A stretch of DNA of 64,000 nucleotides from Bremia lactucae (Eukaryota; Oomycota; Peronosporomycetes; Peronosporales; Peronosporaceae): contig NC_090622.1 of assembly GCF_004359215.1 (NCBI RefSeq), positions 635,829 to 699,828 on the forward strand. The letters are read 5' to 3'. Of this stretch, positions 5,083-47,320 are shown one piece after another; positions within the stretch are counted from its first letter, which is position 1; each line of letters starts with the position of its first letter. A model generated the notes under the pieces. The model saw only the letters and a list, made by a program, of their open reading frames with translations. It searched no databases and was not told the origin of the DNA. The translations under genes and the position numbers were made by a program.

Positions 5083-6225
5083 TCAGTGCAAAAAGCCTTC
5101 GTAGAAACGCCGGTCCATGAACTCGACAATGGCGTCGTCAACTGGATCCTGACCAAAGAGAATACCCAAGAACTTAACCGTCTCACCCCGTTGTAGCACC
5201 TTGGCAACAGGAAAACAAGGCGAGGTGCTACGTCGGTTCAGGGGCATAATCACGCTCTTGGCAAGGTTGAGCCTGGCTCCGGAGCCGTCACAGTATAGTT
5301 GAACTAGCTTAAGCTGCGCTTGAATACCTGAGAGCGGGCTGGATAGCAACGTGGAATCGTCCGCAAAGAAGACACTGGTGACAGTGTGGTCGTTGCAAAG
5401 ACATACACCATGCTCCTCATGCTGCCGGAGCAGGTTACCAAGGGTTTCCATCACCATGACAAATAATAGTGCCGATAGCGGATCGCCTTGTTTGACCCCT
5501 CGGGTGGGAAAGAAAGGAGGTTGAACGTGGCCATTGAGAAGGAGGTGAGCCTGGGGACCAGTGTAGAGAAGTCTCACCCAGTTGATAAAGTCACCTCCAC
5601 AACCCATGCGATTGAGCACTTTAAACATGTAGCTCCACTCGACACGATCATACGCTTTCTCAAAGTCGAGAAACATGGCGTAAGCGTCCTCATCGAGTTC
5701 GGTCACCAGATCTTGTAGATCAGCGAGAAACCTCACGTGGTGATGTATAGTCCGACGCTTGACAAACGCCTTCTGGTCATCATGAATAAGATGTGGAAAA
5801 AAAGTCTGCAGGCGGTACGTCAGCACCTTGGACAACGCCTTGAAATCTACACCAATCAGCGAGATTGGTCTGAAGTTGCCGGGGTCATTCCGCGGACCCT
5901 TTTTGTGTACCATGCACACAGCTGACTTGCGTTGAGAGGGAAGAAGCTCACCACGTGCCAGCTGGTGGTTGAACACAATGCGCAGGCATTCACCAAATGT
6001 ATCTGGCGCAATTTGATAAAAACCAGCAGTGAGGCCATCCATGCCTGGGGCAGAATTTGCTCTCATGTGTTTAAGTGCTTCAGCAAAGTCAGCACCAGCA
6101 ATGGGAGCATTGAGATTATCTTGGTCAGCACCTGCGAGACGTTTATCGATCGTAAACAGCAGCTGCTCTCGGCTAACGCGGTCTGTGGGTGGTAGTGGTC
6201 CGGCAAGACTAGCAGCATCACCCAT
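5083..6225 (-). CDS. LINE reverse transcriptase core, intact stretch
   Basis: This 380-codon open segment of the ORF2 above carries the complete RT palm. Visible motifs are NSAPGMDGLTAGFY (motif 0/1 region), GNFRPISLIGVDFK, motif A AMFLDFEKAYDRV, motif B GVKQGDPLSALLF and the catalytic FADDSTLL. The metal-binding aspartates are all present, so the palm itself is not visibly inactivated, unlike the flanking parts of ORF2. The methionine at 6,225 is not a real start; it lies inside the longer ORF2. Confidence 0.9.
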   Translation of the reverse strand: MGDAASLAGPLPPTDRVSREQLLFTIDKRLAGADQDNLNAPIAGADFAEALKHMRANSAPGMDGLTAGFYQIAPDTFGECLRIVFNHQLARGELLPSQRKSAVCMVHKKGPRNDPGNFRPISLIGVDFKALSKVLTYRLQTFFPHLIHDDQKAFVKRRTIHHHVRFLADLQDLVTELDEDAYAMFLDFEKAYDRVEWSYMFKVLNRMGCGGDFINWVRLLYTGPQAHLLLNGHVQPPFFPTRGVKQGDPLSALLFVMVMETLGNLLRQHEEHGVCLCNDHTVTSVFFADDSTLLSSPLSGIQAQLKLVQLYCDGSGARLNLAKSVIMPLNRRSTSPCFPVAKVLQRGETVKFLGILFGQDPVDDAIVEFMDRRFYEGFLH

Positions 6226-6782
6226 GATTGAGCCCCAATGGGCCCGAAATCTGGCTGAGATGTCCGCCGGGTTGCTAGAGGTGGAGCATCAGGAGTCCGC
6301 ACCTCCTCAATGCTTATCCGTCAAAGGGACAGATCAATCGGACGGAAGAAAAAACAAGAAGAAGTTTCGGAATTCTGAATGTGAAAGTCGAAATCCAGGT
6401 CTTGCTTATAGCAACTGGATCGGTGCGCACAGTCCCGGTATGCCTCTAATGCAGCATGAAACATTGATTGTGAAATGTCGTTTCGCTTGGAGCGGTAAAT
6501 GAAATCTGCTTCGTCTAGCGTCGCTCGCGCCGCAACCAGCGCACCTTCCTGTTGCCGCCGTAAATGCCGCTGCAGAGCCAATAGCTAGGCCGAATGGATT
6601 TCTTCCATTGAACCATACTTTGCCTGGATTGGATACTTTGCGAAGGTTGTTAAGCGCCTGCTGTGCTTCACCGCGGATGGCATCGACCACATCAGGGTAC
6701 TCTAGAAGATACAGAAAATCGCCAGTATCCGTATCCTTGGGGCTGAGCTAAGGACTTCAATGTTACAGTGTGTGCCAAATGA

Positions 6783-7503
6783 TCACCAGCGCCCTGTGGA
6801 TCGAAGTAAGTCGAATCCCGTATATAACGCGTTGCAAAAATCCGTTGACAATAGAGCGTAGTCCAGCCGGTTCAGTCGTGGCTGTGGACCGGTGTACAGG
6901 CGCTCCCGGGAGTGATGAATGCGCCAGGCGTCAACGACTCCCAACTGACCTAGCCAGTCCATACACGCGCTTCGGCCTGGACGAGCAACCAATCGTGGCT
7001 GTGCTGAGTCAAGGCTAGGATTGAGAGGCGTGTTCAAGTCACCGAGGACGATGTGCGTCGCGTTATCTTCAAAGCTGTTGACATGGAGATGATTGAAAAA
7101 GACAGCTTTGTCGTGATCGTCCACTGGTGAGTACACGTTATGGACGTACAATGGCGCACTATTGACCACTAGTCGAACGACGAGATAGCGACCCGGGACA
7201 GTCAGTTCACGAAGTTCTGCTGCCGTGTCGAGACCTGGAAAATCGGGTTGAATAAGAGTAAGGACGCCTCCAGACCGGTGCATCGTCCACGATGTGCTGA
7301 CGGCGCCTGGATCGCTGACAAATAATTTGTGCGATGATCGAGCGTGAAGGTGAAACTTGAAGGTGGATAGATGGTGGCTATCACGGAGCTTGGCCTCCTG
7401 GACGCAAGAAAGGCTATATTGGGAGAGCAAGTGCTCAATAAGCAGGTGTCAATTCTTCTTGATACCGTTCGTGTTGGCGGTAAGCAAAGTGACGTTCTGC
7501 CAC
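6783..7503 (-). pseudogene. LINE APE-type endonuclease domain
   Basis: The domain begins with LLTANTNGIKKN, then one TGA stop, then the catalytic-Glu motif CVQEAKL. Further motifs are LYVHNVYSPVDD, the Asp/Asn motif THIVLGDLNTPLN and LDYALLS near the end (the SDH-type terminal motif is followed by a frameshift). This is the family of apurinic-like nucleases that nick the target site in L1-like elements. The in-frame stop means the present copy cannot give one ORF2 protein. Confidence 0.85.
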
Positions 7504-7536
7504 GAGACTGCAGTCTCATCCATTCGTGAAGCCACC

Positions 7537-9251
7537 TTAGTGGCGTGTTGAAAGCGGCCCCGTCACTAGGACCGGCCGATTCTCTGATTTCTGAAGCTGA
7601 AGAACCTCCTTGTTCTCAGGGAAGAAGCGTCCGCAGTCACGAAGATATTTGAGGTCATCGAGCATTTCACCCTGCCATTGGACTTGTTTCCAGATCGTGG
7701 AGCAGTGTATGCCGATGGGTGAGCGAAGAAGAGCCAGTAGCATGTTGGGTGGAGCAGGCGGGGGTTGTGCGCCGGTATCTAGGGAACCGACCAACCTGTC
7801 AATCGTTGGAGCCAGTAGTCGTTCATAAAGATCTGAGGCGCGGTGCACATCAACATCAGCTCAAAAAGAGATAGTGCTCTAGTTGCGCGTACGATAGTAA
7901 CTAGAATAGGGTTCGCATGTCACTCTTTAGTGCACTGGAGCACACCATCGCGTCTCTTGGGCACCTTGGTGCCGAAGAACTTTGCCCATTTACGAGCGAA
8001 CGTGGTGGAGTCGGTAGGAGCACCCGCACTCAAAATACGATTGGACAGGTGGAGCTGTGCCAGTTCGGTGACGCTGGGGCTGAGCTCACGCATCTCTCGC
8101 AGAAGTGCAGTGTTGAACGCCAACGTAGCTCTGACGGAGCTCGTATAAGTCAGCGAATCAGGATTATTGGACGTATGGAGCGACTTCTGAATGCCGCGCA
8201 CCATGGCGTCCGCAGCAGCCAGCCGATCGGGAAGGATTTGAAGAGTAGCCGTCTCTTCGGCAGCAATCATCTCGCTGATGATCTCCTGGATTGGAGTAGG
8301 CTCCTTGGTTTTAACCACCTTGGTCTGGTTTCTGGTAAAAAAGTGACTAGCTTCCTTTGATGCAGTCAGGTCGCGAGGCGAGCGAACCTTTCGCGGTACG
8401 ATCTGGTACCGTGGTATTTCCACTTCGTCGACCGTCGCTGGGCAGCAATCAAACTCGACTTCAACACTGCTTAGAATGTCAAAATAGTTGTTTGTTGTGA
8501 CACCAGCAAGAGGCTGTGGACGAGACTTCATCAACATGTTGGCAAAGTCCTCATCCGCTCGAGAACGTTTGCCCTTGCGTTTGCCTCCGGTCACAAGAAC
8601 CAATGCCGACTCAGTAGACGGGACGGGTTGTGGCGATGGGGGAAGCAGAAGGAGCTGAGAGGATTTCAAACTGCTTGGTGGCGACATTACCTGTTATCCT
8701 GCAGTTTCGAGGGATAATTCACTGGGCGTTATATTCTTCAACGGTGTCACGACGGATCACCGTTGAGCGCTGAAGCAAGGCACGAAGCGTAGGCGTGCGC
8801 AAGTGCTCGCGATCAGTCGACCGTGCGTCATCAGCAGTAGGGGGATGCGCAGCCCTTACATGGGTGGGTGGTATGCCTTGGCGAAAAAAAGTGTCAGACA
8901 GCCCATTCTCGTCAGGATCCTGTAGAGCATCTGGCTCGTTCATAGACGGTGCACGCAGCTGCACGACCATACCATCGCTGGATTCCGAAGACAACTCAGC
9001 GAATCCGTGTTCACAGGAACTCATGGGCTGTACGTTCGAGGATCCTTCCAAAGATCCATCGACGTTCGCAAGCACCGGAGATAAAAATTTGGACCAGATG
9101 CAACCACAGCTTCCACTACTGGCGTGGCAGACGTAAGGTCGTCGATACTGGAATCCATATGAGCAAATCGGAGCTGAGCGCAAAAGGGAAGGGGTTCTTC
9201 GGTTTTGCTTGGGTTGCTTGTGCTTGACAAGGCAAAATGAGAAGTAACCAT
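7537..9251 (-). pseudogene. LINE ORF1 (gag-like)
   Basis: The region upstream of the endonuclease reads as a broken ORF1 in three blocks: 9,251-8,719 (acidic, PTADDARSTDREH), 8,687-7,920 (255 codons, basic KRKGKRSRADEDF near its start, and a long helical stretch around ADAMVRGIQKSLH) and 7,848-7,537 (LYERLLAPTIDRL to RPVLVTGPL). The start at 9,251 coincides with the target-site duplication (the ATG is formed by it), so the true start may be a later ATG. By position it should be the RNA-binding ORF1 of the LINE; I see no zinc knuckle. The 8,687-7,920 block alone could still be translated. Confidence 0.65.
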
Positions 9252-9258
9252 GGATAGA
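9250..9258. repeat. Right copy of 9-bp target-site duplication
   Basis: ATGGATAGA, identical to 1,254-1,262; Gypsy-1 coding sequence resumes directly after it. Confidence 0.65.
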
Positions 9259-10175
9259 ATAGCGTATACGCACAGTTGAGAACTCTAAGAAAGACACCGG
9301 AAAGGATGCGCTCCTGCGAGAGGCGTATGCAACTAATGTCGTGTCGAACATATTTGAGGATGCGTTGACGGAATGTTAAACGTCACCAATTCCTACCCAG
9401 CTCGTGGAGACTGGCGTAGTAAATAGGACGATGACAAGAAGTCATGTGTCCCATAGTCCTGCTCAGAGCCGAGAGCCTGTGGCAGTAGACAGCGAGCTGA
9501 CAGGAAGTCAAGCGTCGCATGAACCGGCACAGTGCCAAGAGCCTGGTGCCGTTGGAAGGGGTGCGTTAGCCAGGAGTGCAACAGCACCCCCTTCCCAGAA
9601 AAAGGTCGTGGTAACTCGAAGAACGAGTTGTTTACAGATTAGGACGATCAAAGGCACGTCTAAACGAGTGACCTTTGGATCAGTCTCTAATAAAGAGGGC
9701 GGGCCTTCGAACGAGGTGTTCAAGGCCGTCAAAGACGAAATTGCGGAGGCATCTCCAATTAAGGTGCTCCGGCAAGCTTTAAATCACTCGAGGAGATAGT
9801 AAATCTCCCGGAGATGTCGTGGGATCTGTTCCTTGCCAAATTAAAGGAAGGAAAGATCCACGAAATAGCCGCACTAGTTCCAAAAGAGATTTCGGTGGAC
9901 TATTGCTCGTCGTCCACAATGGACGAGAGCGTCCTAGAAACGGACAAAAAGAAGCGGTACGCTGCTCAAGGCTGGGATGCCTTGAGAGACAGTCCGTTCT
10001 TTGAGGTTCCGTGGAAACATCGCGATGTGTTCCCAGAAGAAGTGCCGAGCCGCCTACCAGCAGATAGGGGCATCGGGCACGAGATAGACCTCGAACCTGG
10101 CACCAAGTATTGTGTGACCAGGCAATGGCCGTTGCCGAAAGAACAAGTCGATTATATCGATGAGTTCTTCGACAA
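9259..10175 (+). pseudogene. Gypsy-1 pol N-terminal part, right half of split copy
   Basis: This continues the Gypsy-1 copy that begins at 1. It covers the protease-RT linker (9,404-9,799, with short repeats built on 'SHxSHxPAQxxEPxAVxxxELT') and the start of reverse transcriptase (9,814-10,174), recognisable by MSWDLFLAKLKEG, MDESVLETDKKKRYAAQ and the RT entry DRGIGHEIDLEPGTKYCVTR. A frameshift or small deletion separates the two blocks near 9,790. It stops at the single N at 10,176, after YIDEFFD, where unrelated sequence starts. Confidence 0.85.
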
Positions 10176-15502: not shown

Positions 15503-16435
15503 GTGTCTAGTGCGAAAGCACAATTTCAGCCGTCAGCTTTGGCAGCCATGAAGGCATACCACGTGACGAGCTCATTGGCCTCTGAAATCAAAGAGAGCTA
15601 CAGTCAGAACGACCACTGTCGCCTGCTGTTGGATCACTTTGGTGGACGAAAGGTATTCTTTCCGTCGCACCTGAAAGCTAAGCTAAATCGCTTTAGCTAC
15701 AGCGATGGCTTGTTATGGCATCAGCTGTCACCTTGTCATCCCTTGAGAATCTATGTGCCTCTTGACACAGATCTCAAGCTGATGATCCTTCACGAGCACC
15801 AAGATGCGTCATCTAGTGGGCATCTGGGCCGTGAAAAGTTATTCCTACGAGTGTCAGAGGAATTTTGGTGGCCACATCTCTATAGATGGGTGGCCAACTA
15901 TATTCGCTCTTGCGAACAGTGTCAGCGCATTAAGCCTGCACCGTCCAGCAGTGCGTCACTGAAGCCGCTATCGATTCCAACCAACTGTTGGAAGTCAGTA
16001 AGTCTGAACTTTACGTTTGGCATGTCGCCTGACCACAATGGTCGGACGGGGCTCGTCGTCTTTTTAGACAATCTGGGCAGAATGGTGCATTTAGCACCAT
16101 GAAGCACCACGATCACAGGCAAGGAGGCAGCTCTCTTGGTTTTTGGATCATGTATACTGACTTTTTAGGATGCTCGAGTCCATAACATCGGACCGGAATC
16201 CACGTTTTACGTCGGTTTTTTGGCGTTATGCGTTTGAGCTGCTAAGTAGCAAGCTCCACATGTCTTCAGCCGGTCTTTCCCAGACCGATGACCAAACGAA
16301 ACGTGCCGATCGGGTCGTGGTGGATGTATTGCGCAAGGTAGCGACTTTTAAAGAATGGAGCGAACAATTGCCCTTCGTGGAGCTCGCTATATATAACAGT
16401 GTCCACGGTAGTACGGGTAAGACACCGTTTTGATC
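15503..16435 (+). pseudogene. Gypsy-1 integrase, zinc finger and core
   Basis: The HHCC zinc finger is visible in HEHQDASSSGHLGREK and CEQCQR (about 15,795-15,930). In the catalytic core the first Asp is replaced: SLNFTFGM here versus SLDFMFGM in the copies at 41.4 and 44.1 kb. The second Asp is present in SDRNPRFTSVFW; the copy then continues to KEWSEQLPFVELAIYNSVHGSTGKTPF. A small frameshift with stops lies between 16,102 and 16,170. Integration activity is not expected. Confidence 0.9.
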
Positions 16436-16639
16436 AGGGACTGCGCCATCCTCGAGCGCCAGTATCGTTTGTGCGCAGCCCGAGTCTTAGTGGGAGAGGA
16501 CCTCTCACTATGCTCGGTGCAATGGAAAAAGATAAAAATTATTTAAATTCTTGCCCTCGCGATCCTGCCAGTTTAGCAGTGGTCACGACACCTAAAGGTG
16601 TCAATAAAACAATGCCCTAAATCTGAACTTTAGGCGGTG

Positions 16640-17084
16640 TCATAGGCGAGTTAGATGCAAAAAGCGTGAGCGAAGCTCAACGCTTTGTGGATAAGCGATT
16701 AGTCATCACACGAAAGTCCATGACGCGATGGAAATCGCACATGATAAGCACAAACAATATGTAGACCAAATAGTCGCCAAAACAATGAACGCTTTAGAGT
16801 GGGTGAAAAAGTACCATTAAGTACTGCTACCCTACCTAAAAATGCAATTCCTATACTACCTGGAGGTACTACGAAGTTGTTGCCGCGTTTCATTGGGCCC
16901 TTAACGGTGATAGAAGAGGTTGGAGACCTAAATTATAGGCTCACCCTTCCTTCGTACATGAAGACGCACCCCGTATTTAAGGAGGGCCGTTTGAAACGGT
17001 ATGCTGATCCAGAAGAGATCAATACTCCCGTCCGTCTAAGGAGACCAATAATGACGCCGACTGTCAGTCGAGCGTCAATCTGGT
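16640..17084 (+). pseudogene. Gypsy-1 integrase C-terminus (GPY/F module)
   Basis: GEKVPLSTATLPKN at about 16,799, then LLPRFIGPLTVIEEVGDLNYRL, a GPY/F-type module, and MKTHPVF. In the better copies at 42.2 and 44.9 kb the ORF goes on to a Ser/Asp-rich tail and stops; no chromodomain follows in this family. Confidence 0.85.
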
Positions 17085-17199
17085 GAGGAGACGGGGAAGG
17101 TATATAACTACCAGTCGAATGCCTCCTCCCACCCCAATAAGGACTTAAGAACGTAAGATCCTCGTGGGTAACGCGAATTAACTTTTCCAAACGGTCCAG

Positions 17200-18478
17200 C
17201 CGAAGTTTTGGCCTTCGGTAGCCCCGGCTAATTTTGCGCTGACATCGAGAAGATCCGAAGTCAGTCGCGGAATTTGACTTTCGAGATCCTGATCCGTCGT
17301 TCAGCAGCACTCAACACCTTTGCGACTAAACGGATGCGGGATAGGCTGCCGCGAGTAGGTGGGCGAAATCACTGCTCCTCTCGGGCACCACCTGCACTAA
17401 TGGATGCAGATGAGCAGAACATCACTTCCTCGTCTAGTAATGAGAGAATGGTGGGATACCCAAAGAGTTTTGACTCTTGGGAACCGGTCGACGCCCTGCG
17501 TGTCGACGTGCCGGGCCTGGTCTCTGCCTATGAGAAGAAGCACCAGTTGAAGCCGCACGGCTGGATCCAAGCGTACTAGCAGGAATAGCGCGATCAAGAG
17601 AAACAGGGGGTACAGTGTCACCCATGATTTATATCACACGCAAGCGAGCGAAGTTAATTCGCTGCGACCGTTGTTCCGCAACTTTGGAATGTGGCTGAAA
17701 GTGGCGCAGGAATTCCGCTTCGTATTCGTCGGTTCTTTCATTTTAATACGACACGAGCGGGATCGGGGAAACACGACCAGCTTATTTTTCCTGAGCCTTT
17801 TGCAAACTATAGATGCCATAATAGTTATGTGTATCTAGACTAGGGCGCTCTAGGAGCGACGCACTCATTCCATCCAAATAAGGCCATTCCGATGGAGGTG
17901 GCATCGGTGGTATGCCACCAGTCACATACTTACGCTCAATGCGACTGGCTTGTGACACCGACTGGGCACGCTCACGTCCCGTCGGTGGAGCTTTGCGCTC
18001 GGACTCTTCTGCGTCAGACCTTTTTTTAATGATGGTCTGAACGACAGGTGTTGTGGTTCTACCCAACTGAGAACCAGCTGCGCCTTTAAAGGACGAGACG
18101 AGACAGTTGCTTTTAGACGTAAGGCAAGTTGGCTTCGGCAACGTTGGGCGTCCCCATGTAAGGAGCAATGGGTGAAGTTTGGATGGGCAATAAAGCGCCA
18201 TCATCCTTCCTCATTAGCTCGCTGTGCTCATCACTATTATGAAGTGATGGCAGCGGTGACGACTCATTGAAGTCAACAATGAGGGACGAACTTTATCTGC
18301 ACAGTAAAGATGGGATAGATGTGTAAGTCCAGTTAGAGCGACAGCAGCAGTAGCTGCCGGTGTCGCAACTGCGTTGCTGGGTTTTATCGCTGCGCGTTCG
18401 CTTCGGGCGTGGTTGTGTGGATGTATTAGCAGACGACTTATCACCTTTGCTCCTCTTAGGTGGCATGGTTAGCGCCAT
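17200..18478 (-). pseudogene. Gypsy-1 antisense ORF (aORF), divergent copy
   Basis: Between the GPY/F module and the 3' LTR the only coding-like signal is on the minus strand. It starts at ATG 18,478 or 18,466 (MPPKRSKGDKSSANTS, then PRPKRTRS, a nuclear-localisation-like basic run), 126-138 bp inside the 3' LTR. It can be followed through frameshifts to about 17,200. The best-preserved block (about 18,070-17,820) reads RAQSVSQASRIERKYVTGG and MPPPSEWPYLDG and matches the three other copies with amino-acid replacements rather than stops. A C-terminal hydrophobic heptad-like stretch is weak here. No known domain is recognised. It runs opposite to gag-pol. Confidence 0.6.
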
Positions 18479-18590
18479 TTGAGTGCACACGAGTCGCTAG
18501 AGTGACTGAGAGGACTAAAAGCGGCGCGTAAAGCAGTTCGCTGTCCCTCGTTTCTCTTTGATGAATATGCAAAATGTAAAACCGTTCCGT

Positions 18591-18603
18591 AAGGGGGGGG
18601 GGG
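18591..18603 (+). other. Polypurine tract of Gypsy-1
   Basis: AA followed by eleven G directly before the LTR start TGTAACG at 18,604. It is the expected primer site for plus-strand DNA synthesis. The other copies have AAAGGGGGGGGATGG (46,771) and AAAGGAGGGGATGG (minus strand, 35,384-35,371). Confidence 0.75.
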
Positions 18604-19123
18604 TGTAACGAGGTAAAGTTGACCTGTGTTACACAATCCCCGTTAAGTACACTTTGTGTACTTAAGGGATGGTCAATTACTTAAGCGAAGTAATTAGGCC
18701 CACTATTTGGATGTGGTTCACATCGTGACCCACATTTGTGTATGTGATGCACCTGAGAGCATTCACATTAACGGGGGGTGGGGACGGCTAGCGGCATCCA
18801 AGACACGACGTTGTTAGAATAGTACGCTCGCAATACATACTGGAGCATATCTACATAGACGGCATTTATGATTGATTAAAATAGGTTTTATATCTAATAC
18901 GATTAAATATTAATCATTCTTAAAGATTCTTTGTAATTAAGAAATGCGCAAGTGAAGCCGGATTACCGATTCCGTGAAGAAGGTATTTAGTTTGTTGGGT
19001 GAGGTCGCTTAGGTGCCCACCAACTACATCACTGCACGCGAGAGAATACGGTCAAACCGGTTTCTTACTGTGCCTGAAGGTGTGTGTTAGAGTAGAGCGT
19101 GGCTGCTATCGTAGCGCCCGCCT
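18604..19123 (+). repeat. Gypsy-1 3' LTR
   Basis: It starts TGTAACGAGGTAAAG after the purine tract and ends near the degenerate CCCGCCTTCGG. Homology to the LTRs at 11,444, 34,038 and 46,786 runs over its length, with clear substitutions and small gaps. Confidence 0.85.
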
Positions 19124-30489: not shown

Positions 30490-33400
30490 ATGAATGGCTC
30501 GTCCGTGTGGCGACCGCATTCGTTCAGGGCACGCACGAAACACAACATGTTGCAGCTTCTTACGACGCTCCTGCTTCTATATTTCCTTCCGTTGCCTGTT
30601 GCGGCCACAGCTTGTGTGAATGCCAGTACTTTAGTTGAAGGCGAGTCGGACTTGACCGCCGTCGTGTATGATGCCAATTGCGTTGCACGCAGCTTTCTGG
30701 TCGTCGGAAATTCAGCAGTTGAAAGGAGTCTTAACCTTTCTAACTTGAACGTCGTTGAGGTCAGGAGCTATCCGCGCGTATATCAATTGTAAGAAGCTGT
30801 TTGATTTTGTAAACGAGTAAACCACACTATACTTAACTTGTCTTTTGAGCCCTCTTAGATTGCTCAATAACAATGAAATCGAGATCCTTGCACCCACAAA
30901 TCTGGACAATGACATGGAAACCTTGTTAGTAAAAGGTGGCAATTGATGGTTGCGATACTATACACTTACCAGATGTGATTTGTAAAACAGGGAATTGGCT
31001 AGCAACGTTATCATGGACTTGTCAGATTTTCGCTTTCCAAAGCGTTTGACTTATTTAGATTTGAGCTATAATTCGATTGCGACGCTTTCTTATTCCACGC
31101 CATGGCCCGAATCAGGTGAGCTACAAACGCTCCTACTCCATGGGAATAGCTTGAGCTCTGTGAGCGTCGATTCCTTTTCAAAACTAGTGGCATTGCAGTC
31201 ATTGTACGTGAAAACTGCCTTAGCTGTAGTATGCAAGATGCTGACACGTACAACCATCGCAGGTCCTTGTCAAACACAGGTATCTCGAATTTGAACGACC
31301 TAATTCTACCAGTTTCACTGCGAAAATTCAACGCGACCAGGAATTCGTTTACGAGCGCGTCAACCAACTTTTCCAATCTTCCGACGGCACTGCAATATTT
31401 GTACGTCTGCTTTGTCACGTTACGCTATCGTTGACTTTATTTAAGCCTGGCGAATGTATTCAGAGACCTTAGCAATAATCTTCTGACAGTCTTTCCTACG
31501 ATTGTATCTTCTCTCACGACGCTTGTGGAATTGTACGCCACATTTTATTCATTCTCTTAAACTTTGGACTTATGCTATTTTGTATAGGAATCTTGAGTCA
31601 AATGGGATCAAACAGATTCACGGTGTAACATTTGCATCAACGCTTCGCAAAATATATCTTAATGACAATCCACTGTCGACAATTGAAATCTGCCGCTCTG
31701 ACGTGAGCGTTTTTCAGAGTCTAACAGAATTTTCTGCTCCACTATCCGTGTCAAGTACGTGCTCAAATGTAAAAGCATCACGAGAGGAAATAAAAGGCGT
31801 CTCCTTCTGCGTTCTAGAGGATAATGACTGCATCAGATCGTCTGTTTCAAACTCTGCTGGGGGCAGCACCAAAGATGAGAGCTCAAGCTCTCTTGATGGG
31901 ACTGCCTCTTCTGAGTTGCGCACGCGTTCCAAATCGTGGATTTTTTCGGCTGAATCCATTGGAATTATTGGAACAACATTTCTTGTTATAGGCATCTTGT
32001 TAAGTGCACTCGTGTTCGGTTATGCATGGAAAAAGCGACAGCGCAATGACGACGACTTGTCCCACCGTGGTGCCACAAAGTTACAACGAGACCGCCCCTA
32101 CGGGAGCAGTGGAGGCAACTTTTTGGCCTTTACATCCAGCGGACGAGTTGCACGTGCCGTCGGAAACAATCAATACGAATACCACGATCGTGATAGTAAG
32201 AACGGTCACAATAGCTCGCTTGAATATAGTGGCACAAAGGCTCCTGGAGAGGACGCAGCTTGGAGCGTCTACGATAGTCCTCTCGACAACTACACTCCCG
32301 TAGCGCTCCTAGAATCAAGTCCAAAAGGCAGCAGCTTTCACGGCGCTAGCACGGTTTCACTGCAGGTGCGCAGTAAGATTAAGAGCAAGATGAATCTCGA
32401 TGACCTTCTTGTGTTTGAGATCCCGCCCGAAGAGATTCAAATGCGTCAAGCACTGCACATGTCGACGTCCAAGTCGAACAGCAAGACTGCCTTTGCATTG
32501 AGCAGCATGGGTGTGCGTAGCTTACGCAAGGTGGACACAGCTCTTTTTTTAGCCGAATATCAAGGCTACAAGGTAGTCATACAAGCGCTTATGCGGTCTA
32601 AAAAACGCTTTGAGCAGCACTTTGTCGAGCAAATTCGTCTTGCTGCTGCGCTAGACCATGCTTCAATTGTTCATTTTATTGGAGTTACGACCGGCTGCAG
32701 CGCAACAGCTAGCCGTCAACGGGGAAGTAGCGCTACGGCAGTGCCGTTCGACATAACATCAAGCTACGGTCTTAATGCGAGTAAAAGTCGTTATCCGACC
32801 ATGGGAGCACCAGCCTGGCACCTTGGGGTCGTATTTGAATACATGCAACACGGTTCCCTTGCCTCTATGTTCAAGGCTGAACGCCGTCGTCGTGAAGGCA
32901 ATGGATATTATATAAGCAATAATGTGGCAGTAGCCATTGGCAGTGGCACTGGCAATATATTTAGCTGGTACCCAGTCTTTGTGAAATCGAGCACATGTGT
33001 CAATGCAAACCCCAACACCGACTGGCGTTGTAAGCTCTCGATTGCTCTGGATGTGGCCATGGGGCTGGTCTACCTTCACGCCAACAATTATGCACACGGC
33101 TGTGTTTGCGCGCGAAAAGTGCTAGTAAATGAGCAAGGAGAGGCCAAGCTGAGTGCGATGGATGTACTTCTGCCTTCCGATCTCGCCTCTTTTGACAACA
33201 CGCACACGACGGACGATTTTCACGGCTCACTTAGAGAAAGCGCTCGATGGACTATGCAAAAGCTAGCAGGAATTCGCTCGATGCGTGTGTCAAAAGGACC
33301 GGCGAAGGAAAGTTCAGGGGAACTAGGACGCAGCCGCTATGCTAACAACAGTGGAGAGAGTGGAGTGAGTGGGGTGAGCGGTGCCACGCTTGACGAAAAT

Positions 33401-33892
33401 CACAGCCCAGGCGGCGATCAGTCAACTTCTGACAAAGAGTCAAGTAAATCCGACGAGAACTCGTTCGAGTCAAGTAACAGCAATTTGGCCTGCGTAGCGG
33501 CTCAGCGTGATGATGTATACGCGTTTGGCACGTTCCTTTGGGAGTTAGACACGATGATTGCCGTAGAGGAGGACTTGATGAGCTTGAGAGTCCCTAGCGG
33601 CAATTCACAGTTGCTCAAGTTTTCGCAAGATTGCCCGCTGGAGCTGCAAGAGCTAGCTCGCCAGTGCTGGCACGAGTCGCCGAGCGAGCGGCCAGATGCT
33701 ATTGACGTACAGGAAGAATTAGTACGTGTACTGGAAGGCCGTCTTACGACAAGCGGTCAACCTCCGCCCAATTGGACGCCGCCTAGCTATGTCAGTGCTG
33801 CCAGTACTCTTAATAGTTTGTCAAGCTTTGAGCCGTCGTCATACATGTCAAGCTCCCGCTCTGTGACGATTGCTGATCTGGAAGGAGATTAA
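30490..33892 (+). CDS. LRR receptor with transmembrane segment and pseudokinase domain (TKL type), six exons
   Basis: Spliced exons: 30,490-30,788, 30,859-30,924, 30,991-31,203, 31,263-31,400, 31,464-31,532, 31,588-33,892, giving 1,029 residues. All five introns are GT-AG, 55-70 bp, phase 2. A hydrophobic signal sequence follows the second Met (ATG 30,547, MLQLLTTLLLLYFLPLPVAA). Leucine-rich repeats fill about residues 70-300 (LTYLDLSYNSIATLSYS; QYLDLSNNLLTVFP across a splice). A transmembrane helix lies at 386-408, followed by KKRQR. The kinase-like domain (about 560-980) has VVIQ at 591-594 where VAIK is expected, HGCVCARK at 765-772 in place of HRDxKxxN, and SAMDV at 784-788 in place of DFG, while DDVYAFGTFLWEL (903-) and CWHESPSERP (955-964) are conserved. 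I infer a cell-surface receptor whose kinase fold is catalytically dead and acts by binding. No neighbours help; both sides are transposons. Confidence 0.85.
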
Positions 33893-34037: not shown

Positions 34038-34609
34038 CGTAACGGGCTATAGTTGTCCTAATGTTACACAGTCCCCGTTAAGTACACTTGGTGTACTTAA
34101 GGGGATGGTCAATTACTAAATAATGGTAATTAGACCCAGCACTCGGGTGTGGTGCACATTTGGGACCAACCCTTGTGTATGTGATGCACATGGGTGCATT
34201 CACATTAGGAGAGATGACACCCAGCGTAATCCGTGATGACGGCTAGCGTCATCCGTTTCGCGAGGTATCTAGAAAGGTACGCTCGCAATACATATTACGT
34301 GTTATTTTAGAGAAGACATTTTAATTGGTAAAAATAGGTATTTATATTTGATTCTATTAAATATAAATCAGTCTGAAAACTACTTCCTACTTGGTAAGTG
34401 CGCACGAGGAGACGGATTACCGCTCCCGTGACGACACTTGATTAGAGTACTTAGTGTAACCAGAGTACTTAGTGTGTTGGGTGAGGTCGCTTATGCGCCC
34501 ACCACAACTACCTCTCTGCACGCAAAATAAGCAGGTTAAACCGCTTCCTCGCTGTGCTAGGGTGTGTGTCTAAGTAGAGCGTGGCCGCATTACGACGTGC
34601 CCGCCCACA
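34038..34609 (+). repeat. Gypsy-1 LTR, plus orientation (palindrome arm 1)
   Basis: It starts CGTAACGGGCTATAG (TG changed to CG) and ends CCCGCCCACA. It carries two private duplications, GAGTACTTAGTGTAACCA twice and a doubled GATGAC..AGCGT block near 34,214-34,250. Both are shared with the inverted LTR at 34,909-35,370 but not with the LTRs at 11,444, 18,604 or 46,786. Confidence 0.85.
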
Positions 34610-35502: not shown

Positions 35503-36455
35503 GATGCCACCTTAAAGGGGCCACGTTGGTGGGTCGTCTGTGAAGACGCCCACTCAACCTCGCACTAAGCGCACGCGCCTCGTTAACACGCCGGCAGCGT
35601 CTAATGCCTTAGTCGAAACGCCGACAGCAAGTGCTGCTGTCGCGCTATTAGGACTTAAGGATCCATCACACTTTAACAATGAGGATGCTGATCCGTCGCT
35701 CATTGTCGACAACAATGAGTCGACACCGTTGCCATCACCTCATAGTAGTGATGCGAACAACGAGCTCATGAGGAATGATGATGGCGCATTATTGCCCATC
35801 CAAACTTTTCTTATAGCTCACAACATGGAGACAGCAACATTTTCGAATGCTGTCTCGTCGTCTGCACTGGATAGCGCAGCGACTGTTAATGAGAGCGCTG
35901 CCCATAAAGGCACAATTGCTTCTTCGTTGGGTATAACCACAACGCCTTATGCTCAGACCATAATCCATCATGGTTCTGACATAGAGGATTCGGAGCCTAA
36001 AGCTCCGCCGACGACACGTCAACGTGCTCAGTCGGTGTCACAAGCCAGTCGTTTTAAACGTGGCTATGTGACGGGTGGCATTCCAAAGATGCCCCCTCCA
36101 TTTAAATTGCCTCGTTTAAACGGGCCAAGAGTGTCGCTCCTTGAGCGCTCTCTTGTAGACGCACATAATTATTATGGCGTCTTTCAATCATGGAGGGCTC
36201 AGGAAAATCGCTTGGGCGTATTTTCCTGATCCCAGTCGTGTTGCGTTCAATGATACGCCCGACCAATATGAGGCGGGATATTGCGCCGCATTCATCCGCA
36301 TTCCGATGCGATGAAGCAGCGGTCGCAACGAATTAATTTCGCCCGTTTGCGTGTAAAAGAAACTATAGGTGATTCTGTACCCCGTTTCTCTTCACAACGC
36401 TGCTTCTGCTAGTTCATTTAAGACTAGCGAAGAGGCCTCAGCTGGTGCTCCACCA
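35503..36455 (+). pseudogene. Gypsy-1 antisense ORF, copy next to the inverted LTR
   Basis: It begins at ATG 35,503, 133 bp inside the minus-oriented LTR (stop at codon 4), and is open from 35,540 to 36,229: KTPTQPRTKRTRLVNT, VALLGLKDPSHFNNEDAD, SDIEDSEPKAPPTTRQRAQS, SRFKRGYVTGGIPKMPPP and LLERSLVDAHNYYGVFQSW. Past the stop it continues LRRIHPHSDAMKQRSQRINF until about 36,455, where integrase sequence of the opposite sense takes over. It is antisense relative to the LTR at 34,909-35,370, exactly as at 45.3-46.7 kb. No known domain. Confidence 0.65.
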
Positions 36456-41258: not shown

Positions 41259-42630
41259 TAGTGTCAGAGGAATTTTGGTGGCCACACCTATTTAGATGGG
41301 TGGTCAACTATATTCGCTCTTGCGAACAGTGTCAGCGCATTGAGCCTGCACCATCCAGCAGTGCGCCACTGAAGCCGCTTCCGATTCCAAACAACTGTTG
41401 GAAGTTAGTAAGTCTGGACTTTATGTTTGGCATGCCGCCCGATCATAAGGGTTGGACAGGGGCTAGTCGTCTTTGTAGACAGACTGAGCAAGATGGTGCA
41501 TTTGGCACCATGTAAGACATCGATCACAGGCAAGGAGGTAGCTCTCTTGTTCCTGGATCATGTTTACCGACTACACGGGGTGCCCGAGTCCATAGTATCG
41601 GACCGGGATCCACGTTTTACGTCTGTTTTTTAGCGACATGTGTTCGGGCTGCTAGGTAGCAAGCTCCACATGTCGACCGCAGATCATCCCTAGACTGATG
41701 GCCAATCAGAACGTGCCAATCGGATCGTGGCGGATGCCTTACGCACTATAGCAACTCCCAAAGAATGGAGCAAGCAATTGCCCTTTGTGGAGCTCGCTAT
41801 AAATAACAGTGTCCACGCCAGTACGGGTGTGAAACCGTTTTATATTGACTGAGCCATCCTCGGACGCCAGTCTCGTTTCTGCGCAGCCCGAGTCTTAGTG
41901 GGGAAAGCCCCTCACTATGCCCGGTGCGAAACAGGGGTATAGTTTCGTCAATATGACGATGACCCATGATGGTATCATCTCAACGACAGAAACTTGCCCT
42001 AATGACCCTGCCAGTTTAGCAGTAATCAATAAAATTACGTCTTATGACCGACCTCTCAGCGGTATCATAGGCGCGTTTGATGCTAAAAGCGTGAGCGAGG
42101 CTCAATGCTTTGTGGATGAGCGATTAGCCGTAACACGAAAAGTCCGTGACGCGATGGCAAGCGCGCAGGACAAGCAAAAAAAATATGCAGACCGAAATGG
42201 TCGCAAAAATAATGAACGCTTTTAAGTGGGTGAAAACGTACTATTAAGTACTGCTAACCTGCCTAAGAATGCAATTCCTGTACTACCTGGAGGTACTACG
42301 AAGTTGTTGCCGCGTTTCATTGGGCTCTTTACGGTGGTAGAAAAGGTTGGAGACCTAAATTATAGGCTCGCCCTTCCCAAGTACATGAAGACGCACCCCG
42401 TATTTTACGTGGGTTGTCTTAAAAGGTATGTAGACCCAAATGAGGTCATATACCCCCATCCGTCTAAGGAGACCGATGGTGGCGCCGACTGTGAGTCGAG
42501 CGTCCTTCGGTTGTGGGAGACAGAGAGGGCGAAAAACTATCAGCCGACCGACTCCTCCCACCACGAACAGGACTCGGAGAGCGAAGGACATCACACTAGT
42601 AACTCGGATTACTCAGCATCATCCACTTAA
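41259..42630 (+). pseudogene. Gypsy-1 integrase and GPY/F module (repeat unit 1)
   Basis: It starts at VSEEFWWPHLFRWVVNYIRS in the zinc finger (CEQCQR), then SLDFMFGMPPDH (first catalytic Asp), VVFVDRLSKMVHLAPC, SDRDPRFTSVF (second Asp), MSTADHP.TDGQSERANRI (with a stop), then 41,917-42,225 MPGAKQGYSFVNM to DKQKKYADRNGRKNNERF. The GPY/F module GTTKLLPRFIGLFTVVEKVG ends in the Ser/Asp-rich tail HHTSNSDYSASST, stop at 42,630. A few stops remain (e.g. 41,631, 41,850, 42,223). Confidence 0.9.
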
Positions 42631-43927
42631 AAATGTTCAAGCGAGTCTTTAGGCGTTCATAACCCTGACGATCTTTCGCTCGATCATCACAAAGATCCAA
42701 GGTCAGTCGCGAGACTTGACCCTCGAGATCCGCAATAGGTCGTTCAGCAGCGCGAAACGCATGTACGGACGGAGGTAAGGCAGCCGCAAGAAGGTGGGCG
42801 AGATCGCCACTCCTGTCAGACGCCGCATGCTTTATTGGATGCGGGTGAGAGTCAACGCTTTCTTGTTCAAAGGTTGCTTGTTCACCGCTTACTCGTTTAA
42901 TGGAAAGGTTACCCGAAGAGTTTCGACTCTTGGGAACCGATCGATACCCTACGTATTGATGTGCCCGGCTTAGTGGCTGCCTATGAAAAGGAGCACCAGC
43001 TGAGACCTCTTCGCTAGTCTTAATTGGACTGGCAGAAGCAGCGTTGTGAGAAGAAACAGGGGGTTCCAGTACTGCCCATAGTTTCTTTTACACACAAGCG
43101 GGCGAAATTAATTTGTTGCGACAGCTGTTTCATTGCATCGGAATGCGGATGAATGCGGCGCAATAAATCCGCCTCGTATTGGTCGGGCGTTTCATTGAAC
43201 GCAACACGACTGGGATTGGGAAAATACGCCCAAGCGATTTTCCTTGAGCTTTCCATGACTAAAAGACGCGATAATAATCATGTACGTCAAGAAAAGCGCG
43301 CTCTACAAGTGACTCTTTTGGCCCGTTTAAAAAATAAGTTTATTTTGAGTTGCTTTACAAAATTAAAAAATAAAATTTTGATGGAGGGGGCATCATTCAT
43401 CACATAACCACGTTTTGAACGACTAGCTTGTGACACCGACTGAGCACGTTCACGTGTCGCCAGCGGAGCTTTAGACTTATAATACTCTATGTCAGAATTA
43501 TTATGGATAATAGTTTGAGCATAAGGCGTCGTGGTTTTACCCAGCGAAGAAGCGGTTGTGCATTTATGGCAGCGCTCTCATTAATAGTCGCTGCGCTATC
43601 CAGCGCAGACACCGAGACAGCATTGAAAAATGTTGCTGTCTCGATGTTTTTAGCCATGAGAGATGTTCGAATGGGCAATAATGCGCCATCATCCTTTCTC
43701 ATGAGCTCGTTGTCCGCATCACTACTATGAGGTGATGGCAACGGTGTCGACTCATTGTAGTCGGCAATGAGCGACGGATTAGCATCCTCATTGTTAAAGT
43801 GGGATGGATCCTTAAGTCCTAATAGCGCGACTGCAGCAGTAGCTGTCGGCGTTTCGACTAAGGCATTAGACGCTGCCGGGGTGTTCTCGAGGCGCGTGCG
43901 CTTAGTGCGAGGTTGAGTGGGCGTCTT
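42596..43927 (-). pseudogene. Gypsy-1 antisense ORF (repeat unit 1)
   Basis: This is the same ORF as at 45,306-46,651 but more broken. The N-terminal part at 43,920-43,487 reads KTPTQPRTKRTRLENTPAAS and VALLGLKDPSHFNNEDANPS; the middle (about 43,400-43,330) is replaced by about 50 bp of AT-rich filler; 43,256-43,020 gives MESSRKIAWAYFPNPSRVAF and TPDQYEADLLRRIHPHSDAM; the remainder to 42,596 is nearly identical to unit 2. It is cut at the N at 43,928. Confidence 0.65.
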
Positions 43928-43928
43928 N
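43928..43928. other. Single N, probable contig join
   Basis: Left of it the antisense ORF (minus) is cut after KTPTQP; right of it plus-strand integrase starts in mid-zinc-finger. Confidence 0.7.
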
Positions 43929-45340
43929 CCATCTAGTGGGCATCTGGGCCGTGAAAAGACATTCTTACGAGTGTCAGAGGAATTTTGGTGGCCACACCTA
44001 TATAGATGGGTGGCCAACTATATTCGCTCTTGCGAACAGTGTCAGCGCATTAAGCCTGCACCGTCCAGCAGTGCGCCACTGAAGCCGCTACCGATTCCAA
44101 CCAACTGTTGGAAGTCAGTAAGTCTGGACTTCATGTTTGGCATGCCGCCCGATCATAAGGGTCGGACAGGGCTAGTCGTCTTTGTAGACAGACTGAGCAA
44201 GATGGTGCATTTAGCACCATGTAAGACATCGATCACAGGCAAGGAGGCAGCTCTCTTGTTCCTGGATCATGTTTACCGACTACACGGGGGAGCCCGAGTC
44301 CATAGTATCGGACCGGGATCCACGTTTTACGTCTGGTTTTTAGCGACATGTGTTCGGGCTGCTAGGTAGCAAGCTCCACATGTCGACCGCAGATCATCCC
44401 TAGACTGATGGCCAATCAGAACGTGCCAATCGGATCGTGGCGGATGCCTTACGCACTATAGCAACTCCCAAAGAATGGAGCAAGCAATTGCCCTTTGTGG
44501 AGCTCGCTATAAATAACAGTGTCCACGCCAGTACGGGTGTGAAACCGTTTTATATTGACTGAGCCATCCTCGGACGCCAGTCTCGTTTCTGCGCAGCCCG
44601 AGTCTTAGTGGGGAAAGCCCCTCACTATGCCCGGTGCGAAACAGGGGTATAGTTTCGTCAATATGACGATGACCCATGATGGTATCATCTCAACGACAGA
44701 AACTTGCCCTAATGACCCTGCCAGTTTAGCAGTAATCAATAAAATTACGTCTTATGACCGACCTCTCAGCGGTATCATAGGCGCGTTTGATGCTAAAAGC
44801 GTGAGCGAGGCTCAATGCTTTGTGGATGAGCGATTAGCCGTAACACGAAAAGTCCGTGACGCGATGGCAAGCGCGCAGGACAAGCAAAAAAAATATGCAG
44901 ACCGAAATGGTCGCAAAAATAATGAACGCTTTTAAGTGGGTGAAAACGTACTATTAAGTACTGCTAACCTACCTAAGAATGCAATTCCTGTACTACCTGG
45001 AGGTACTACGAAGTTGTTGCCGCGTTTCATTGGGCTCTTTACGGTGGTAGAAAAGGTTGGAGACCTAAATTATAGGCTCGCCCTTCCCAAGTACATGAAG
45101 ACGCACCCCGTATTTTACGTGGGTTGTCTTAAAAGGTATGTAGACCCAAATGAGGTCATATACCCCCATCCGTCTAAGGAGACCGATGGTGGCGCCGACT
45201 GTGAGTCGAGCGTCCTTCGGTTGTGGGAGACAGAGAGGGCGAAAAACTATCAGCCGACCGACTCCTCCCACCACGAACAGGACTCGGAGAGCGAAGGACA
45301 TCACACTAGTAACTCGGATTACTCAGCATCATCCACTTAA
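43929..45340 (+). pseudogene. Gypsy-1 integrase and GPY/F module (repeat unit 2)
   Basis: SSGHLGREKTFLRVSEEFWW, CEQCQRIKPAPSSS, SLDFMFGMPPDHKGRTGLVV and FVDRLSKMVHLAPCKTSITG are in one open frame of 150 codons (43,917-44,369). A frameshift at 44,286 hits before the SDRDPRFTS motif. The rest, including stops, is the same as unit 1. From 41,400/44,110 to 43,059/45,769 the two units are almost base-identical. Confidence 0.9.
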
Positions 45341-46651
45341 AAATGTTCAAGCGAGTCTTTAGGCGTTCATAACCCTGACGATCTTTCGCTCGATCATCAC
45401 AAAGATCCAAGGTCAGTCGCGAGACTTGACCCTCGAGATCCGCAATAGGTCGTTCAGCAGCGCGAAACGCATGTACGGACGGAGGTAAGGCAGCCGCAAG
45501 AAGGTGGGCGAGATCGCCACTCCTGTCAGACGCCGCATGCTTTATTGGATGCGGGTGAGAGTCAACGCTTTCTTGTTCAAAGGTTGCTTGTTCACCGCTT
45601 ACTCGTTTAATGGAAAGGTTACCCGAAGAGTTTCGACTCTTGGGAACCGATCGATACCCTACGTATTGATGTGCCCGGCTTAGTGGCTGCCTATGAAAAG
45701 GAGCACCAGCTGAGACCTCTTCGCTAGTCTTAATTGGACTGGCAGAAGCAGCGTTGTGAGAAGAAACAGGGGTTACAGTACTGCCCAAAGTTTCTTTCAC
45801 ACACAAGCGGGCGAAATTAATTCGTTGCAACCGCTGCTTCATCGCATCGGAATGCGGATGAATGCGGCGCAATAAATCCGCCTCGTATTGGTCGGACGTT
45901 TCATTTGAACGCATCACGACCAAGATCGGGAAAATACGCCCAAGCGATTTTCTCTGAGCCCTCCATGATTGAAAGACGCCATAATAATCATGTGCGTCTA
46001 GAAGAGAGCGCTCTAGGAACGACGCTCTTAGCCCGTTTAAACGAGGCCATTTAGATGGAGGGGGCATCTTTGGAATGCCATCCGTCACATAGCCACGTTT
46101 AAAACGACTGGCTTGTGACACCGACTGAGCACGTTCACGTGTCGCCAGCGGCGCTTTAGGCTCCGAATCCTCTATGTCAGAACCATGATGGATTATGGTC
46201 TGAGCATAAGGTGTTGTCGTTTTACCCAACGAAGAAGAGGTTGTGCCTTTATGGGCAGCGCTCTCATTAACAGTCGCTGCGCTATCCAGTGCAGACGACG
46301 AGACAGCATTCGAAAATGTTGCTGTCTCCATGTTGTGAGCCATTGGAGAAGTTTGGATGGGCAATAATGCGCCATCATCATTCCTCATGAGCTCGTTGTC
46401 CGCATCACTACTATGAGGTGACGGCAACGGTGTCGACTCATTGTTGTCGACAATGAGCGACGGATCAGCATCCTCATTGTTAAAGTGTGATGGATCCTTA
46501 AGTCCTAATAGCGCGACAGCAGCACTAGCTGTCGGCGTTTCGACTAAGACATTAGACGCTGCGGCGTGTTCTCGAGGCGCGTGCGCTTAGTGCGAGGTTA
46601 AGTGGGCGTCTTCGCAGATGACTTATTAACGTGGCCCCTTTTTGGTGGCAT
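45306..46651 (-). pseudogene. Gypsy-1 antisense ORF, best copy (373 codons open)
   Basis: ATG at 46,651 (MPPKRGHVNKSSAKTPT) lies 135 bp inside the 3' LTR. A stop at codon 18 and a frameshift break the N-terminus, but from 46,427 to 45,306 the frame is open for 373 codons. Parts in order: Ser/Asp/Glu-rich N-terminal third (SPHSSDADNELMRNDDGALL), SDIEDSEPKAPLATRERAQS, basic SRFKRGYVTDGIPKMPPPSK, LLDAHDYYGVFQSW, a helical SDQYEADLLRRIHPHSDAMK, and a C-terminal coiled-coil-like AAERPIADLEGQVSRLTLDL. It overlaps the 3' end of the sense pol frame tail-to-tail by 35 bp only, so it is not a shadow of pol. No database family is recognised; a nuclear protein is conceivable from its basic runs. Confidence 0.65.
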
Positions 46652-46770
46652 CTTTGGCGCCGTGTATGTTAACACACGTGCGCTAGAGTGATTGAGTGAA
46701 CTATCGGCGCGTAAAGCTGCTCGCAGTTCCTCGCTCCTCTTTGAAGAATGTAAAATGTTAATTCGTTCTT

Positions 46771-46785
46771 AAAGGGGGGGGATGG
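46771..46785 (+). other. Polypurine tract of Gypsy-1
   Basis: AAAGGGGGGGGATGG directly before the LTR start TGTAACGG at 46,786. Confidence 0.8.
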
Positions 46786-47320
46786 TGTAACGGGCTAAAG
46801 TTTCCCTAATGTTACACAGTATCTGTTAAGTACACTTGGTGTACTTAAGGGGATGGTCAATTACTAAATAATAGTAATTAGACCCAGCGCTCGGGTGTGG
46901 TGCACATTTGTAACCAACCCTTGTGTATGTGATGCACATGGGTGCATTCACATTAGGAGGGATGACGCCCAGCGTCAAACGTTACGCGAAGTTTCTAGTA
47001 AGGTACGCTTGCAATACATATATGGGATATATACAGAGATGACATTTTATGATTGGTTTTAATAGGTAATTTTATTAGACACAATTATATATAAATCAGT
47101 CTGAAAACTAAATTTTACTTGGTAAGTGCGCGCGAGGAGTCAGATAACCGTTCCCGCGACGACACGTTTACCATAGTACTTAGTGCGTTGGGTGAGGTCG
47201 CTAAGGCGCCCACCACAACTACATCACTGCACGCAAGAGAAGCTGGTTTAACCGCTTCCCCGCTGTGCTAGGGTGTATGTCTAAGTAGAGCGTGGCCGCA
47301 TTACGACGTCCTTACCTACA
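46786..47320 (+). repeat. Gypsy-1 3' LTR
   Basis: It starts TGTAACGGGCTAAAG and ends ACCTACA, 535 bp. It lacks the two private duplications of the LTRs at 34,038 and 34,909, so it belongs to another subfamily. The Gypsy-2 LTR starts 8 bp further on. Confidence 0.85.

Follow-up and report, generated by a model that had tools for sequence, protein, structure and literature searches.

The locus

The window, the whole stretch of DNA analyzed here, comprises 64,000 nucleotides of the Bremia lactucae genome (C13:635829-699828). It contains copies of a Ty3/Gypsy element with a protein-like frame on the opposite strand to gag-pol, located between the end of pol and the 3′ LTR (Table 1). The initial annotation had placed this frame at four sites. 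It is present at all of them, open in the copy P0001 and found by tblastn at the other three. The motifs quoted for the divergent copy were also recovered: the ORF 17782-18204 reads RERAQSVSQASRIERKYVTGGIPPMPPPSEWPYL.

Table 1. Antisense copies and adjoining element features in the window.
Feature	Position	Strand	Basis and remarks
Antisense ORF, window copy P0001, 373 codons	45306..46427	-	Translation; N-terminus and Arg/Ser tail, present in fuller copies, are missing
Start of the antisense gene (MPPKRG...), 17 codons followed by a stop	46598..46651	-	Translation and sequence; frame differs from the main ORF; same start in other copies
Inr-type motif TCACTCT (YCAYTYY), candidate antisense start site	46685..46691	-	Motif from PMC3599244; begins 40 nt before the ATG
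Polypurine tract AAAGGGGGGGG, preceding the 3′ LTR	46771..46781	+	Sequence; putative assignment from position
3′ LTR, as far as other LTR copies of the window match it	46786..47309	+	Sequence comparison
End of pol with a Tf2-1-like SH3 domain	44936..45340	+	Domain match and layout; antisense ORF ends opposite the last codons
Second antisense copy, partly open, 229 aa	35540..36229	+	ORF; tblastn 35729-36397; element on the minus strand
Third antisense copy, frameshifted	42596..43927	-	tblastn 42599-43741, in pieces; overlaps the near-duplicate of the stretch 43970-46041
Fourth, divergent antisense copy, 73% DNA identity	17176..18478	-	tblastn 17176-18253; pieces in several frames

P0001 had been described as the best copy, open for 373 codons and overlapping pol by 35 bp. 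Both values are correct (pol ends at 45340), and apply to a truncated copy, not to a full gene. The copy is damaged at both ends: the start region is out of frame, and the tail is cut by a stop. The fullest copy read contains 504 stop-free codons, 491 of them counted from the MPPKRG start. In the overlap of the window copy, the wobble base of each frame lies opposite the second codon position of the other (computed from 44936 and 45306). The antisense ATG at 46651 is separated by 134 nt from the LTR edge at 46786, in agreement with the distance of 126-138 bp given initially.

Two of the four copies (42596-43927 and 45306-46651) are not cleanly independent, because they lie partly in the stretches 41260-43331 and 43970-46041, which are 97.6% identical and have a single N between them at 43928. 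The remainder of the two ORFs (43394-43927 versus 46079-46612) is only 90.3% identical. The near-identical 2-kb stretches may stem from a tandem or local duplication within the element, or from a join made during assembly. The DNA of the divergent element (15810-18608) is 84-86% identical to that of the window copy (43930-46790) in pol, but only 73% in the antisense ORF. By this measure, the antisense accessory gene evolves faster than pol.

The window carries further features elsewhere. The region 5083-9351 on the minus strand looks like a non-LTR element of the LINE type, with a reverse transcriptase ORF (5083-6225, RVT_1 match) and, by eye, an endonuclease-like ORF (6783-7430). A 796-aa ORF on the plus strand (31502-33892) resembles by eye a membrane-anchored protein kinase and is likely a host gene; an LTR is close by at 34039.

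Copy number and layout in the genome

A search of the genome (115.9 Mb, 220 contigs) yielded at least 113 matches to the antisense protein (110 of 5,313 candidates scored). The matched stretch was free of stops in 24 of the 113 rows, three of which are small fragments. The element carrying the antisense ORF is very common in the Bremia lactucae genome.

For the layout, 96 loci were gathered by matches to the antisense ORF itself, among the matches listed; many of them contain long N runs. The end of pol faces the antisense ORF in 66 of the 73 loci with a readable 3′ flank, and a pol end on the same strand was near the ORF in none of the 96. An LTR edge faces the ORF in 69 of the 77 loci with a readable 5′ flank. 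The distance from the LTR edge to the projected antisense ATG has a median of 131 bp (quartiles 128-132, range -57 to 430). A position between pol and the 3′ LTR, antisense to gag-pol, is the arrangement of the aORF-3R class, and these two flank counts place the Bremia frame in it. The segment from the pol stop to the LTR measures 1.4 kb in the window.

The overlap with pol was determined in 24 hand-picked pairs, with the antisense frame read through stops. In 17 pairs, the part with homology to the full protein extends 149-161 bp into the end of pol. One pair has an overlap of 29 bp, and in six the homologous part does not reach pol. The overlap of 35 bp is a property of the truncated window copy.

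Relatives in Peronospora

Relatives of the antisense protein were retrieved with a single-protein query (12), with a profile (33) and with a distant relative as query (14). The named sources are Peronospora effusa and P. farinosa; the rest are ENA/Logan records. Peronospora-type DNA was also sought in viral contigs, where 18 stretches matched the pattern and none was a relative. The protein family was found here only in Peronosporaceae and in ENA/Logan records.

The P. farinosa protein P0009 extends beyond the shared region into sequence antisense to the pol end, with 31 of 50 residues identical to the antisense reading of pol in the window (E = 4e-20). P0011, an ENA protein, likewise runs into antisense pol (E = 5e-11). 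Since P0009 and P0011 read into antisense pol, the convergent layout at the pol end also occurs in Peronospora, and the continuation of the P. farinosa protein makes this layout older than one species. The occurrence in more than one species, another feature of the aORF-3R class, is given by P. effusa and P. farinosa, in the latter together with the layout.

A single capture of a host gene or of another element, either nested here or merely carried along, would fit a family whose named relatives are all from Peronospora. The P. effusa relatives, however, are located on contigs of ten different lengths, as expected of a repeat, and the pol-end layout is common to two genera. Within the range of the protein searches, nested insertion and a captured host gene are regarded as very unlikely.

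Openness of the frame

The other five frames are not as open as the antisense frame; equal openness had been named as counter-evidence in the initial annotation. Over 90 copies, the antisense frame has 0.54 stops per 100 codons (208 in 38,701 codons), while the other five have 3.47-7.62 (totals of 1,344-2,969 stops) and the base composition predicts 4.13. Compared with both, the frame is more open than expected by chance. This does not extend to the part overlapping pol. There, the antisense frame contains 19 stops in 1,993 codons, and two other frames contain 4 and 13 stops in 2,048 codons, the latter being the pol frame. Selection on the antisense tail is thus unsupported by openness, because two other frames are at least as open.

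Five open proteins of 480-559 aa (P0002, P0003, P0006, P0008 and P0017) form ten pairs of 43-73% identity, a comparison to be read with caution, since databases show open frames but leave broken ones out. Neutral drift was simulated from one open copy. Runs ended stop-free in 9 of 2,000 cases at 80% protein identity, in 2 of 6,000 at 66%, and in 0 of 6,000 at 50%, where 10.5-12.1 stops had accumulated on average. A frame open by composition and inherited from a few recent source copies would fit the recent origin of most copies (median pairwise DNA identity 0.89). Such a chance origin is already contradicted by the cross-genus homologues, by the P. farinosa layout and by the simulations, with about 10-12 stops expected at 50% identity, and must be regarded as extremely improbable.

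Tests of selection on the protein

Substitution rates were compared between copies, as the initial annotation had proposed. Among 32 deep pairs in the genome (dS ≥ 0.3), which reuse a few divergent copies and are not independent, omega was 0.63 in the antisense frame and 0.75-0.84 in four other frames. The opposite-strand frame sharing the wobble position reached 0.65, yet with 31 stops per deep pair. Against the divergent copy, the antisense ORF gave an omega of 0.52-0.71 (seven copies). The omega test is blunt, because pol, a known gene, shows only 0.68 in decayed copies against the same divergent copy (45 copies) and its mirror frame 0.64. In sampled within-genome pairs with dS > 0.05, the antisense omega of 0.74-0.87 was nearer to neutral than that of pol (0.56).

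The ratio of nonsynonymous to synonymous changes shifts between private and shared changes in all six frames, so this comparison is uninformative for any one of them. An MK-like test against the divergent copy was not significant (p = 0.18). Codon-position diversity in the antisense ORF showed a weak third-position excess of 0.012 (permutation p = 0.0086). Together, the sequence data are read as an antisense gene that appears to be truly constrained, though less strongly than pol, the signal having been blurred as inserted copies decayed. The selection on the protein proposed initially is supported mainly by conservation across genera; inside the genome, dN/dS is reduced only moderately and does not decide the matter.

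The near-neutral dN/dS in most sampled within-genome pairs could be explained if the antisense RNA matters and not the protein. The RNA would pair with gag-pol RNA and feed small-RNA silencing or limit expression, the ORF being incidental. Gypsy elements of P. infestans have been reported to yield small RNAs of both strands (PMC3522703), and an antisense-RNA option has been raised for antisense ORFs in a review (PMC7264820). An RNA-only role would not hold about 480 codons open across 43-73% protein identity, nor would it produce a stop deficit confined to one frame. This explanation is considered improbable, though less so than capture.

The antisense frame is very probably a protein-coding accessory gene. 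The initial annotation had regarded it as an accessory protein of the element. This reading is borne out by the fixed position and strand, the Peronospora homologues, the layout in P. farinosa and a frame kept open over deep divergence.

The antisense protein

The conserved antisense protein has about 480-490 aa and an overall pI of 9.7-10.4 (composition of five proteins). A basic start (MPPKRG..KRTRR) is followed by an acidic stretch rich in Ser, Thr and Pro, a small helical core, a linker, a long helix and a tail. The tail is rich in Arg and Ser, comprises 38-50 residues and is encoded over about 150 bp of pol. This overlap may be a natural example of one DNA segment encoding two proteins, one on each strand.

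The AlphaFold model of P0008 is mostly disordered. Its low mean pLDDT (56.8) limits confidence to the helices. The core comprises predicted helices at residues 193-213, 234-245 and 249-269. A long helix at 378-435 is predicted with high confidence (pLDDT block means up to 97) and is read from the model as a probable coiled coil. Foldseek found no match to the model in the PDB. The protein-family search suggested in the initial annotation gave a limited answer: Pfam and PDB sequence searches returned weak matches only, several to coiled-coil families, and in the Pfam searches the HMMER filters drop most weak matches. TRP28 (PF04195) gave no match at E ≤ 1 for P0001, nor was it one of the 10 families that were listed for 13 aligned members with E values up to 10. 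The bZIP family was absent from the Pfam listings for P0001 and the 13 aligned members, despite the predicted long helix.

Candidate promoter and leader

The initial annotation had proposed an antisense promoter near the 3′ LTR. Core promoters of P. infestans have been described with an Inr of the sequence YCAYTYY near the start site (PMC3599244). A match on the antisense strand occurs in 39 of 50 leaders with a recognizable ATG; a match in reverse orientation was found in two. The match begins 38-39 nt before the ATG in 35 of the hits. The 39 leaders are related by descent and count as one conserved site, not as 39 observations. In relatives whose N-terminal read-on permits a guess, the Inr is not clearly kept. 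The promoter proposal has support at the level of a motif, most readable leaders carrying the match some 38 nt ahead of the ATG. An earlier Inr candidate, selected by eye further upstream near 46745, was dropped, as it is not conserved in other leaders. The leader 46652-46785 between the antisense ATG and the polypurine tract keeps blocks like GAACTGCGAGCAGCTTTACGCGCCGC in many of 51 copies; they may serve the antisense gene or cis signals of the element itself.

Possible function

The basic patches and the Arg/Ser tail point to a possibly nuclear protein, as proposed initially. A nuclear regulator is the most likely role; taken for itself, a nuclear regulatory role is possible, somewhat short of an even chance. 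Transcription might start within the 3′ LTR or at the gene's own Inr-type promoter, which would lie just before the ATG and beside the polypurine tract. The protein would pair via its long coiled coil. Inside the nucleus, its basic N-terminus and Arg/Ser tail could target RNA of the element itself or LTR chromatin. The result would be a tuned element expression or nuclear traffic, like that of HTLV HBZ and as proposed for Grande gene23.

The basic N-terminus, the Arg/Ser-rich tail and the coiled coil would suit a transcription factor and equally an oligomer that binds RNA. The same gene may therefore serve the life cycle, in a Rev-like or Gag-helper-like manner, by RNA export, packaging or nuclear import of the integration complex, and not regulate transcription. 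Life-cycle roles have been suggested for antisense ORFs (PMC7264820). They are opposed by the lack of a recognized RNA-binding domain in Pfam and by an antisense expression that would be separate from the packaged RNA. This alternative is a serious one, though rather unlikely. The preferred explanation, an antisense accessory gene of the aORF-3R class in a Ty3/Gypsy family of downy mildews, including nuclear action of its protein, is on balance probable.

Comparison with known systems

Antisense ORFs of the aORF-3R class, located between pol and the 3′ LTR, have been reviewed for Grande, RIRE2, Retand, PvRetro13 and the fungal element Boty (PMC7264820). The literature search found no such antisense ORF reported for oomycetes, with subscription papers largely outside its range, and the main text of the Bremia genome paper does not contain the word 'antisense' (PMC6570648). 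Within the literature searched, an antisense gene in an oomycete Gypsy family is unreported; previous descriptions of the arrangement come from plants and a few fungi. The initial statement that no counterpart is described holds for oomycetes in this literature, but Boty shows that the arrangement is not confined to plants. The Bremia frame encodes a new protein in the known class of antisense accessory ORFs, in an oomycete Gypsy family.

The plant members, maize Grande gene23, rice RIRE2 and Silene Retand, share the opposite strand, the position between pol and the 3′ LTR and the occurrence in several species. The presence of the ORF in most copies of a family is reported as a feature of the plant elements (PMC7264820). 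The Grande protein has been reported to be nuclear and its gene to have a promoter of its own (PMC7264820). Antisense proteins of Retand carry TRP28 (PMC11963269), whereas neither TRP28 (PF04195) nor SMC matched in the Pfam listings here. Protein family, host kingdom and pol overlap also differ. The regions between POL and the 3′ LTR of Retand are given as 2.9-6.6 kb (PMC11963269), compared with 1.4 kb in the window. Boty from Botrytis cinerea and Sclerotinia likewise has an antisense ORF between pol and the 3′ LTR in a non-plant host; it is likened here by arrangement alone (PMC7264820).

HTLV-1 HBZ is described as a nuclear antisense protein with a zipper, expressed from the 3′ LTR (PMC10186651). 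It is likened by this description: both antisense genes lie just inside the 3′ LTR, and the zipper of HBZ compares with the predicted coiled-coil helix. The Bremia protein differs in the missing bZIP match in Pfam, and host and element family are unrelated. It appears rather doubtful that a downy-mildew Gypsy element evolved, independently of plants and retroviruses, an HBZ-like nuclear regulator with a coiled coil, an Arg/Ser tail overprinted on the pol end and an oomycete-type Inr promoter beside the polypurine tract. If it did, the element would tune its own expression, and this may help to explain its expansion in Bremia. The B. lactucae assembly (115 Mb, gap-rich) has been reported to contain 58.6% Gypsy sequence in its contigs (PMC6570648), and an element-encoded regulator would for this reason bear on Gypsy expansion. 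With antisense accessory genes recurring among plant Gypsy elements, Boty and HTLV, a stramenopile case would suggest that one solution has been gained repeatedly at the same place.
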